NCBI RefSeq assembly: GCF_030656875.1
Contig: NZ_CP130943.1
Location: 930,001-994,000, forward strand
Length of the DNA stretch: 64,000 nt
Direction: 5' to 3'
DNA from: Prescottella sp. R16
GTDB lineage: Bacteria; Actinomycetota; Actinomycetes; Mycobacteriales; Mycobacteriaceae
Shown here piece by piece: positions 4,901 to 39,308 of this stretch (positions are counted from its first letter, which is position 1; every line of letters begins with the position of its first letter). The position numbers and the translations under genes were made by a program. The notes beneath the pieces were generated by a model. The model ran no database searches. It saw only the letters and a list, made by a program, of their open reading frames with translations, and was not told where the DNA came from.

Positions 4901-4973
4901 GCCCCCTTCGTCTAGCGGCCTAGGACGCCGCCCTTTCAAGGCGGTAGCGCGGGTTCGAATCCCGTAGGGGGTA
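4901..4973 (+). tRNA. tRNA-Glu (anticodon UUC)
   Basis: The acceptor arm is GCCCCCT paired with AGGGGGT (one G-U pair), with discriminator A. The anticodon loop is CTTTCAA (TTC) and the T arm contains GGGTTCGAATCCC. It is the first of a five-tRNA cluster. CCA is not encoded. Confidence 0.96.
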
Positions 4974-5021
4974 CGCTTCTCTCGCGAGAAGCGAACGTAC
5001 AGTTGAATAGCAGTACAGTAT

Positions 5022-5095
5022 GGCCCTGTGGCGCAGTTGGTTAGCGCGCCGCCCTGTCACGGCGGAGGTCGCGGGTTCGAGTCCCGTCAGGGTCG
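5022..5095 (+). tRNA. tRNA-Asp (anticodon GUC), copy 1
   Basis: The acceptor arm is GGCCCTG paired with CAGGGTC, with discriminator G at 5095. The anticodon loop holds GTC (CCTGTCACGG) and the T arm contains GGGTTCGAGTCCC. CCA is not encoded. Confidence 0.97.
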
Positions 5096-5150
5096 CTCAG
5101 CTTCACCGGAAACGGTGTGGCGCGATAGGCATTCGGTTCGGGTGCCGCCC

Positions 5151-5227
5151 GGCCAGGTAGCTCAGTTGGTACGAGCGTCCGCCTGAAAAGCGGAAGGTCG
5201 CCGGTTCGATCCCGGCCCTGGCCACCA
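5151..5227 (+). tRNA. tRNA-Phe (anticodon GAA), copy 1, CCA encoded
   Basis: The acceptor arm is GGCCAGG paired with CCTGGCC, followed by A-CCA (5224-5227), so the 3' CCA is in the gene, unlike its neighbours. The anticodon loop is CTGAAAA (GAA). A hairpin (CACGGGAA/TTTCCGTG) follows at 5226-5250. Confidence 0.97.
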
Positions 5228-5316
5228 CGGGAAGCCTTCGGGTTTCCGTGAGAGCAATACAGTTTCACGAGCAGTACGGTTCCACAAGCAGTACCCAGTT
5301 TCATGCAGTACAGCAT

Positions 5317-5390
5317 GGCCCTGTGGCGCAGTTGGTTAGCGCGCCGCCCTGTCACGGCGGAGGTCGCGGGTTCGAGTCCCGTCAGGGTCG
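5317..5390 (+). tRNA. tRNA-Asp (anticodon GUC), copy 2
   Basis: It has the same sequence as the copy at 5022-5095, including the GGCCCTG acceptor strand and discriminator G. It belongs to the second unit of the tandem duplication. Confidence 0.97.
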
Positions 5391-5443
5391 CTCTATCGTT
5401 CCGGAAACGGGACGATGCGACGACATTCGGTTCGGGTTTTTCC

Positions 5444-5520
5444 GGCCAGGTAGCTCAGTTGGTACGAGCGTCCGCCTGAAAAGCGGAAGGTCGCCGGTTC
5501 GATCCCGGCCCTGGCCACCA
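5444..5520 (+). tRNA. tRNA-Phe (anticodon GAA), copy 2, CCA encoded
   Basis: It has the same sequence as the copy at 5151-5227, including encoded CCA at the 3' end. It is the last tRNA of the cluster; the IclR gene converges on it 43 bp further on. Confidence 0.97.
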
Positions 5521-37609: not shown

Positions 37610-37969
37610 TCACAACCAGCCGTTGCCGCCCGACACCGCGGCGGGGCCGGGGCCGTTGTCGACGATCTCCACCTGACGGGCATCGACGGTGACGGCGCAC
37701 CGCGTCGCCCCGCTGTGCCGGACGACGTTGGTGACGGTCTCTCGAATCGTCCACGCGAACAATTCCCGCAGCCGCGTCGGGACGGTGTCGGTGCTCCCCG
37801 GCAGATCGGCGTCGATCCCGGCGGCGCGCAATGCTTCCCGTGCCCGTGCCCGTGCCCGTGCCCGGTCGGCGTCGGCGTCGAGCAGACGGTTGGCGAGCTG
37901 TGCATTGACGGTGACGACGGTGAGCGAATGCCCCAGGATGTCGTGCAGGTCGCGGGCCACGCGCGCCCG
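37610..37969 (-). pseudogene. Remnant of a NarL/DesK-type sensor histidine kinase
   Basis: The frame holds the H-box (RARVARDLHDILGHSLTVV), a stretch of dimerisation helix, and an ATPase start (FAWTIRETVTNVVRHSGATRC, VEIVDNGPGP), then stops where GLxGMxER should follow. A stop codon lies directly before the H-box, and the membrane sensor domain is gone. Between H-box and ATPase the link is shortened near a hexanucleotide repeat. No response regulator is adjacent. It is best read as a decayed gene. Confidence 0.75.
37841..37864 (+). repeat. (TGCCCG)4 hexanucleotide repeat
   Basis: Four exact copies of TGCCCG lie inside the kinase remnant and encode a run of Arg-Ala. Such a repeat can drive slippage and deletion, in line with the missing link in this gene. 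Confidence 0.9.
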
Positions 37970-38054: not shown

Positions 38055-38060
38055 TACTCT
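38055..38060 (+). promoter_or_regulatory. -10-like element for a leaderless leader peptide
   Basis: TACTCT ends 7 bp before the GTG at 38068, so transcription would start at or next to the start codon. No clear -35 box is seen. Confidence 0.45.
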
Positions 38061-38067
38061 CGATCTC

Positions 38068-38136
38068 GTGTCAGCGACCTATTTCTGGTTTAGCAGGCCG
38101 GCCCCGGGTGGGTCGGTCGGCGTAACCACGCGCTGA
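38068..38136 (+). CDS. 22-residue aromatic leader peptide of the DAHP synthase gene
   Basis: The short frame begins GTG TCA GCG ACC and then has TAT TTC TGG TTT (38080-38091), four aromatic codons in a row (Tyr-Phe-Trp-Phe); the product is VSATYFWFSRPAPGG plus seven residues. It ends in TGA 89 bp before the DAHP synthase start. No Shine-Dalgarno is present, but the -10-like TACTCT fits leaderless translation. Such a run next to the first gene of aromatic synthesis is the hallmark of ribosome-mediated attenuation. A comparable leader (aroR) is known before aroF in Corynebacterium glutamicum. Confidence 0.78.
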   Translation: MSATYFWFSRPAPGGSVGVTTR

Positions 38137-38183
38137 CAATCCACCCCAGAGCCGGATGACAGACCGGCTCACTGGGATTCTTC
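38106..38183 (+). promoter_or_regulatory. Transcription attenuator before the DAHP synthase gene
   Basis: A terminator-like hairpin forms from CCCAG-AGCCGG (38145-38155) and CCGGCT-CA-CTGGG (38164-38176), followed by ATTCTTCC. A competing pair, GGGTGGGT (38106-38113) with ATCCACCC (38139-38146), overlaps the first arm and would block it. The first strand lies inside the leader frame, 14 bp after the aromatic codons. A ribosome stalled on those codons would leave it free to form the antiterminator; a ribosome reaching the stop at 38134 would cover it. Confidence 0.65.
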
Positions 38184-38225
38184 CAAGTCTTCGAGGGTCG
38201 GCCTGAGAACAGGAACGAACCGAAG

Positions 38226-39308
38226 ATGACCGCTATCGCCAACGACCAGCGTCTCGACGAGCAGCGCACCGTGCAGATCAGCCCGCTGCTGGCCCCGTCC
38301 GCCGTGCGCGCCGAGCACACCCCCGACGATGTCGCCGCCGCCACCGTGCGGTCCGGCCGTGCCGAGACCGTCGCCATCCTCAGCGGCACCGACGACCGTC
38401 TCGTCGTGGTGGTCGGCCCGTGCTCCGTGCACGATCCCGACGCCGCGATCGACTACGCCCGCAGGCTCGCCGCCAAGGCCGGGGAACTGCGCGACGACCT
38501 GCAGATCGTGATGCGGGTCTACTTCGAGAAGCCGCGCACCACGCTCGGCTGGAAGGGTCTGCTCAACGACCCGCACCTCGACGGCACGTACGACATCAAC
38601 ACCGGTCTCGGTATCGGCCGCAAGCTGCTGCTCGACATCTCCCGGCTGGGCCTGCCGGTGGGCTGCGAGTTCCTCGACCCGATCCTGCCGCAGTACATCG
38701 CCGACCTCGTCACGTACGGCGCGATCGGTGCCCGCACCGCCGCCAGCCAGGTGCACCGTCAGCTGTGCAGCGCGCTGTCGATGCCGGTGGGCATCAAGAA
38801 CTCCACCGAGGGTGACGTCCAGGTCGCCGTCGACGGTGTCCGGGCGGCCGCCGCGAGTCACGTCTTCCCCGGCGCCGACCTCGACGGTCAGGTCGCGCTC
38901 GTCCACACCGTCGGCAACCCGGACTGCCACGTCATCCTGCGCGGCGGCACCGACGGCCCCAACTACGACGCCGAAACCGTCGCCGACACCCTGGCACGGC
39001 TGAACAAGGCGGGTCTGGCCGAGCGGGTCGTGATCGACGCGAGCCACGGCAACAGCCGCAAGGACCACAACAAGCAGGTCGACGTCGCCGCCGACGTCGC
39101 CGACCGGATCGCCGCCGGTGACCGTGGCATCGTCGGCATCATGCTCGAGAGCTTCATCGAGGCCGGCCGCCAGGATCTGACGCTCGGCAAGGCCGACGAG
39201 CTCACCTACGGGCAGTCGATCACCGACGCGTGCATCGACTGGGACACCACCGCGGCGACCCTCGACCGGCTCGCCGCCGCCGTCGCCGAGCGTCGCGCCG
39301 GCAAGTGA
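38226..39308 (+). CDS. aroF: 3-deoxy-7-phosphoheptulonate (DAHP) synthase, class I
   Basis: The 360-residue protein condenses phosphoenolpyruvate and erythrose-4-phosphate, the first step of the shikimate pathway. Class I (AroF/G/H) features are VVVGPCSVHDPDAAIDYA, MRVYFEKPRTTLGWKG, GARTAASQVHRQ, VGIKNSTEGDVQVA, DASHGNSRKDH and GIMLESFIEAG. Enzymes of this class are usually inhibited by an aromatic amino acid. The leader peptide and attenuator upstream add control by aromatic amino acid supply. A strong terminator follows. Confidence 0.94.
   Translation: MTAIANDQRLDEQRTVQISPLLAPSAVRAEHTPDDVAAATVRSGRAETVAILSGTDDRLVVVVGPCSVHDPDAAIDYARRLAAKAGELRDDLQIVMRVYFEKPRTTLGWKGLLNDPHLDGTYDINTGLGIGRKLLLDISRLGLPVGCEFLDPILPQYIADLVTYGAIGARTAASQVHRQLCSALSMPVGIKNSTEGDVQVAVDGVRAAAASHVFPGADLDGQVALVHTVGNPDCHVILRGGTDGPNYDAETVADTLARLNKAGLAERVVIDASHGNSRKDHNKQVDVAADVADRIAAGDRGIVGIMLESFIEAGRQDLTLGKADELTYGQSITDACIDWDTTAATLDRLAAAVAERRAGK

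Follow-up and report, generated by a model that had tools for sequence, protein, structure and literature searches.

Does a short reading frame rich in aromatic codons, ending just upstream of the DAHP synthase gene aroF, sense aromatic amino acids and adjust the expression of that gene? The question is raised by a locus of Prescottella sp. R16 that lies in a 64,000-nt stretch of contig NZ_CP130943.1 (positions 930,001 to 994,000), which was analyzed as a whole and is referred to below as the window. All aromatic amino acids are reached through DAHP synthase, and one RNA element reading all three end products via tRNA charging would, if true, be an unusually complete feedback sensor.

The aromatic-codon leader

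The original prediction described a 22-codon frame with TAT TTC TGG TTT in a row, 89 nt 5′ of aroF, and a −10-like TACTCT 7 nt 5′ of its GTG. Both could be read directly from the sequence. The features of this part of the locus are as follows (window coordinates).

38055–38060, + strand: −10-like box TACTCT, with the leader GTG 7 nt downstream
38068–38136, + strand: leader open reading frame VSATYFWFSRPAPGGSVGVTTR, presumably leaderless, 22 codons from GTG (38068–38070) to TGA (38134–38136)
38069–38076, + strand: 5′ end TGTCAGCG, with 8 bp of complementarity to the stop context at 38131–38138
38080–38091, + strand: putative regulatory codons TAT TTC TGG TTT (Tyr-Phe-Trp-Phe), conserved in the type-A leaders described below
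38131–38138, + strand: stop context CGCTGACA, in which GCGCTGA is kept in type A
38226–39308, + strand: aroF, class-I DAHP synthase, 360 amino acids (PF00793, E = 5.7e-84), start codon ATG at 38226

The gap between the leader stop codon and the aroF ATG is 89 nt. Runs of four aromatic codons occur three times on the two strands of the window (38080 and 60361 on the + strand and 46925 on the − strand). The genome has one class-II DAHP synthase, and no such leader was seen upstream of its gene when the region was read by eye. Between an AMP-binding-enzyme gene and the leader, the − strand carries a 116–amino acid open reading frame (37610–37960) that matches only part of HisKA_3 (PF07730, E = 9.9e-10) and looks like a truncated histidine kinase. 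Elsewhere in the window are a cobalamin riboswitch (RF00174, 32878–33047, − strand, 85.7 bits) and a cluster of five tRNA matches (4901–5517, + strand), in which two pairs are equal in score, as if duplicated.

A VSATYFWF leader was present at the same place in all 14 genomes searched in the genus. In the family, the exact motif pattern occurred once each in 34 of 121 genomes, always at most 200 nt upstream of a listed aroF match, and the reversed pattern was absent from all 121. To cover a broader range, 298 aroF-related loci, which are part of all matches, were examined: the best 80 among the matches listed, 98 from searches of relatives, the family, the order, and the class, and 120 further upstream regions picked from the same listings. 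The 250 loci whose names are actinobacterial or that belong to the window’s own family, order, or class yielded 248 distinct upstream regions. A leader was defined as an ATG or GTG frame of 10 to 45 codons with TAnnnT located 6 to 8 nt 5′ of the start and at least three Phe, Tyr, or Trp in six residues. This rule was satisfied by 215 of the 248 regions; read on the other strand, no region satisfied it, nor did any of the five dinucleotide shuffles made from each region. The 33 misses include extra enzyme copies (e.g., L273–L275), twelve loci of family f31, two of family f16, and a few loci with weaker aromatic frames (L151, L169, L171, L258, and L279). The aromatic codons, whose conservation in relatives the original prediction had put forward as a check, are kept both in the genus and, by the rule, in most of these regions.

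The leaders fall into two forms, assigned by residue pattern. Type A (130 loci) has YFWF and its variants with the tail PAxGG; its named members include Rhodococcus, Nocardia, Antrihabitans, Amycolatopsis, and Pseudonocardia. Type B (73 loci) has YWRF, WYWR, RYPYF, and other runs with the tail APGGA, and its named members include Mycobacterium, Mycolicibacterium, Dietzia, Tsukamurella, Streptomyces, and Kribbella. Of the type-A leaders, 129 of 130 contain Phe, Trp, and Tyr together; in type B, 60 of 73 do. By these comparisons, the leader is real, widely conserved, and of the attenuator type; judging from its codons, it probably reads all three aromatic amino acids.

In the 118 distinct type-A leaders, TTT directly follows TGG in 114, TAT outnumbers TAC (112 versus 14), and TTT outnumbers TTC (133 versus 92). 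The six window open reading frames taken as genes have 4 TAT versus 40 TAC and 1 TTT versus 72 TTC. T-ending Tyr and Phe codons, rare in the window genes, would suit starvation sensing; alternatively, they might keep this stretch of the leader unstructured. The stop context GCGCTGA is found in 124 of 130 type-A leaders.

TAnnnT stands 6 to 8 nt before the in-frame start in all 203 leaders (130 of type A and 73 of type B), the commonest spacing being 7 nt (99 of 130 and 65 of 73, respectively). At three control distances, the box was found on average in 7.0 of 130 type-A and 1.7 of 73 type-B leaders; the start was picked among 1.6 to 1.7 candidates on average, a choice that the distance controls share. 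For Streptomyces lividans, the passages cited put the mean distance from TAnnnT to the transcript start at 6.3 nt and describe several leader peptides of the leaderless kind, some of which have no T-rich terminator (PMC8079986). Together with the conserved spacing, this distance gives good support to a presumed leaderless start of the aroF message. The 5′ end is complementary to the stop context in two registers (TGTCAGCG in the window and CAGCGC in MQR leaders), and this pairing is stronger than in composition-matched shuffles in 69 of 70 leaders. No covariation was found between these two segments, the native value being reached by 168 of 200 permutations.

A probable ribosome-dependent switch in the leader RNA

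The pairings considered below involve the following segments.

38096–38104, + strand: strand 1, GGCCGGCCC, partner of 38110–38118 (GGGTCGGTC) when no ribosome covers strand 1
38106–38113, + strand: strand 2, GGGTGGGT, partner of the post-stop strand
38139–38147, + strand: post-stop strand (strand 3), ATCCACCCC, partner of strand 2, its end doubling as the hairpin base
38145–38176, + strand: hairpin (core and extension), followed by ATTCTTCC (38177–38184)
38195–38205, + strand: strand 6, GGGTCGGCCTG, possible partner of the hairpin 3′ arm (38160–38170) or of the ribosome-binding region
38210–38215, + strand: likely aroF ribosome-binding site CAGGAA, whose CAGG can pair with CCTG at 38202–38205

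Our preferred reading, held with moderate confidence and built on the sequence, is that the element is a leaderless ribosome-mediated attenuator of aroF. Transcription would start at the leader GTG, as the conserved −10 box suggests. When charged tRNA-Tyr, tRNA-Phe, or tRNA-Trp is scarce (tRNA charging being the presumed trigger), a ribosome would stall at 38080–38091 and block strand 1 from strand 2. Strand 2, thus freed, would take the post-stop strand, pulling the base of the hairpin off the T-containing tract, and aroF would be read through. When amino acids are ample, the ribosome would reach the stop codon and mask the post-stop strand, and the full hairpin would form. In the last step, the extended hairpin may act as a weak intrinsic terminator, perhaps assisted by pairing over the aroF ribosome-binding site.

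The 158-nt leader folds more stably than shuffled sequences (z = −4.69; 0 of 200 shuffles equally stable), and both of the pairings foreseen from the window alone are present. Strand 2 (GGGTGGGT, 38106–38113) and ATCCACCC (38139–38146) form eight pairs, one of them G-U. When partners were swapped between loci, none of 200 permutations reached the native value for strand 2 and the post-stop strand. With 13 divergent representatives, the signal was weak (28 of 200), and in only 50 of 90 cases was the native pairing better than the mean of its swaps. Compensatory changes in relatives, the further check put forward with the prediction, were found between these two strands: GGATGGG/CCATCC in four loci and GAGTGGG/CCACTT in three. 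Five loci with GGGCGGG as strand 2 pair more poorly.

These permutation tests ignore sequence relatedness; the guard is the null outcome for most control pairs at the same loci, for which 106 to 196 of 200 permutations reached the native value. The exception is the hairpin 3′ arm with the ribosome-binding region, for which 8 of 200 did so, or 68 of 200 when representatives were used. Two further candidate pairings were rejected. The tail of strand 2 paired with the stop context more strongly than in composition-matched shuffles in just 18 of 71 leaders and showed no covariation (183 of 200). Strands 1 and 2 showed no covariation with strand 6 (162 of 200), though the lowest-energy ribosome-free fold contains that pairing.

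To follow the ribosome position, nascent RNA was folded under constraint, on the assumption that a ribosome covers positions −15 to +12 relative to its A-site codon. In the window, the probability of pairing between strands 1 and 2 was 0.75 in ribosome-free RNA, 0.00 to 0.08 when a ribosome stalled at one or another of the four codons, and 0.74 once the ribosome had reached the stop codon. The corresponding values for strand 2 and the post-stop strand, calculated as means over all post-stop bases including flanks, were 0.00, 0.60 to 0.66, and 0.00. Means over 103 loci shifted in the same way but less sharply: 0.62, 0.02 to 0.30, and 0.70 for strands 1 and 2, and 0.08, 0.36 to 0.55, and 0.00 for strand 2 and the post-stop strand. 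The placement of the regulatory codons thus lets a stalled ribosome mask strand 1 in the constrained folds, and the modeled behavior of the nascent RNA is that of a classical attenuator. One result runs against the preferred reading: in the full-length window RNA without a ribosome, strand 1 turns to strand 6, and this leaves strand 2 to pair with the post-stop strand as well (0.66). Overall, a switch of strand 2 between strand 1 and the post-stop strand is supported by the compensatory changes and the constrained folding.

Termination or translation as the output

The hairpin consists of a 7-bp core, GAGCCGG/CCGGCTC (38149–38155/38164–38170), and an extension, CCCA/TGGG (38145–38148/38173–38176). 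The original prediction had the hairpin and the competing pairing share bases. They do overlap, at 38145–38146, but only in the outer extension, and the core is left untouched. In the window, the core forms with a probability of 0.91 to 1.00 in every simulated ribosome state, a point against the preferred reading. Since the core lies outside the competing pairing and is always formed, the 4-bp extension would be the only regulated part.

The extension sets the stem against ATTCTTCC, a weak tract with four T in 8 nt; of 13 rows from the same genus, 12 have that number after the extended stem. Coevolution was also seen between the extension and the post-stop strand (2 of 200 permutations reached the native value). 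At least four T follow the extended stem in 28 of 100 distinct type-A hairpins, compared to 14% with shuffled linkers. A simpler scan found at least four T in 16 of 114 type-A regions versus 53 of 70 type-B regions; two of those 16 (L021 and L238) are laid out as in type B. Within the window’s genus, a weak terminator is plausible. Ribosome-mediated attenuation as originally proposed is supported in part: comparison backs the frame, the codons, the box, and the coevolving alternative pairings that follow ribosome position. The putative terminator role of the hairpin keeps its coevolving extension and four T, but the tract is weak and is poorer in most of the lineage, and the core is not excluded by the competing pairing. 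In our judgment, termination, alone or together with translation, is still fairly probable as the output.

The weak T tract, the ever-present core, and a coevolving helix over the aroF ribosome-binding region make control of translation a live rival. Here, the same leader and ribosome switch would act on aroF translation alone, with no termination. The short hairpin would be the remnant of an outer helix that encloses the true terminator in relatives, and its 3′ arm or strand 1 would compete for strand 6, which is otherwise paired over the ribosome-binding site. We regard this as possible but rather unlikely. Strand 6 shows coevolution with two partners. For the ribosome-binding region, none of 200 permutations reached the native value, and again none when 13 representatives were used; for the hairpin 3′ arm, 0 of 200 did, and 6 of 200 when the representatives were used. 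The control pair of 3′ arm and ribosome-binding region was, however, likewise low at 8 of 200. The T tracts are poor in most type-A loci, as the scan indicates, and leaderless short open reading frames of mycobacteria are reported, in the passages cited, to control translation of the downstream gene (PMC9031893).

In the window, the cost of opening the ribosome-binding region was 4.9 kcal/mol with the arm free, 10.4 kcal/mol with the arm blocked, and 9.0 kcal/mol with a shuffled arm (0 of 20 as low); the means over 103 loci were 6.2, 11.3, and 9.3 kcal/mol. This larger effect was obtained with an arm of 13 nt and with opening energy as the measure, a switch made once the first result had been seen. 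That first test, with a 7-nt arm, gave next to no effect: the mean unpaired probability was 0.349 with the arm free versus 0.327 with the arm blocked, with a rise at 18 and a fall at 2 of 103 loci. In folds of the whole leader, the 3′ arm paired with strand 6 at most at 0.10 on average and at 0.00 in the window. The site was easier to open only for stalls at Tyr or the first Phe (means of 4.8 and 5.3 kcal/mol versus 9.5 kcal/mol at the stop codon), whereas for stalls at Trp (7.8 kcal/mol) or the last Phe (10.0 kcal/mol), it was not more easily opened. Since equilibrium folding is a poor judge of kinetic switches, both outputs are kept.

Comparison of the two forms bears on the origin of the hairpin. 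In type B (n = 71), two mutually coevolving arms (0 of 200) enclose a hairpin, which in most cases has a T-rich tail, and coevolution also links the upstream one of these arms to the strands of the leader (0 of 200, versus 49 of 200 for a control). No conserved helix overlapping the 5′ arm of the terminator-like hairpin was seen in type B (e.g., L011, L068, L161, L170, and L239). The arms of L021, L150, L284, and L285 carry GAGCCGGC and GCCGGCTC, or nearly so, which are the words of the window hairpin arms. We infer that the window hairpin is what is left of the type-B outer helix once its loop had lost the terminator; alternatively, the terminator was gained in other lineages.

A fuller account, which we likewise hold only tentatively, is that an old actinobacterial leader sensing Tyr, Phe, and Trp lost its terminator in the Rhodococcus-Nocardia-Amycolatopsis lineage and that a stalled ribosome’s signal came to be relayed through successive helices to aroF translation. 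The relay would run, again as a less likely course, from strands 1 and 2 to strand 2 and the post-stop strand, to the hairpin arm or strand 1 with strand 6, and to strand 6 with the ribosome-binding site. In the same doubtful scenario, the message would be leaderless, its own 5′ end also pairing with the leader stop codon. Its actinobacterial spread, its presumably leaderless start, and what looks like a terminator traded for control close to the ribosome-binding site make the element a testable case of a change in attenuator output.

The leader peptide is very unlikely to act in its own right, whether by arresting ribosomes or as a small protein with a function, although the frame is kept in many genera, including the tail PAxGG. 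Within the tail of the 118 type-A leaders, the wobble base hardly varies (GCC in 115 leaders, GGG in 111), and C-any-G codes for Pro, Leu, or Arg at one site and for Ser, Pro, or His at another. With its nucleotides constant while its residues vary, the tail seems to be selected as RNA rather than as peptide; for the same reason, an arrest peptide was set aside. Conservation of the frame, codons, start spacing, and stop context leaves hardly any room for a chance or decayed open reading frame without regulatory function in the aroF 5′ region.

Relation to known attenuators

Aromatic-codon runs also precede class-I DAHP synthase genes at non-actinobacterial, mostly proteobacterial loci (L042, L028, L036, L048, L049, L056, L064, and others), for example, MSAKFYFYFFWYLRPLADREG in Burkholderia and MNASCRSFYFWYYGFPMPLAEEGSRSP in Xanthomonas. 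At least five aromatics in six residues were found at 15 of 47 non-actinobacterial loci, and L042, L028, and L049 gave no match in Rfam. No Rfam family reached threshold at the leader, either in the window’s own piece or in five relatives. No description of the leader outside Corynebacterium was found in the open-access literature. Cysteine-responsive leaderless short open reading frames of mycobacteria were reportedly described by Canestrari et al. in 2020. According to the passages cited, they resemble the window leader, itself presumably leaderless, in being leaderless and short, in having a codon run for the regulated amino acid, and in controlling a downstream gene (PMC9031893); they differ in serving cysteine genes, and the likeness is one of description, not of RNA structure. 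The uORFC-13-1 motif, described in the passages cited only from Acholeplasma and environmental sequences, has an upstream open reading frame with Phe that sits close to a terminator and precedes aroF, a gene for DAHP synthase (PMC8632094). It belongs to another phylum, and here too the comparison is of descriptions, not sequences.

A 2005 survey of Actinobacteria gives structures for Trp, Cys, and Leu genes together with T-boxes and, in the passages cited, reports none for other amino acid pathways (PMC1262725). With the trp-type attenuators of E. coli and of the Corynebacterium and Streptomyces trp genes, as outlined there (PMC1262725), the window element shares end-product codons, the alternative of 1:2 and 2:3 pairings, and a predicted dependence on ribosome position. 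Unlike them, it has codons for three amino acids in one run and a presumably leaderless start, and its T tract is weak and its hairpin core lies outside the competition. It also differs from type B, belonging to type A and having no T-rich terminator hairpin between the outer arms.

The closest known counterpart appears to be AroR, the attenuator of aroF in Corynebacterium glutamicum, said to have been described by Neshat et al. in 2014. The AroR leader, already listed in 2013 (PMC4046766), carries Phe-Tyr-Phe; its stalling is described as raising transcription under Phe limitation, and in the same account, Tyr availability is without effect (PMC11802643), a point against the preferred reading. 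Another paper terms this control of aroF translational, in the passage cited (PMC7356990). As far as these descriptions go, AroR resembles the window leader as a short aromatic-codon leader located directly before the DAHP synthase gene aroF, with stalling proposed to raise expression. The window leader has two traits of the AroR type, standing directly before a class-I DAHP synthase gene and containing Phe and Tyr codons. In the window’s own family, locus L259 has a Phe-Tyr-Phe leader (MRMWRFYFSKAPEAETS) with strands in the type-B layout and resembles AroR by description. The run in the window is Tyr-Phe-Trp-Phe, compared to Phe-Tyr-Phe in AroR, which is known here by description only. As a handle, the leader may serve the engineering of aromatic production. 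We judge the window element, from its sequence, to be a variant of the AroR kind.
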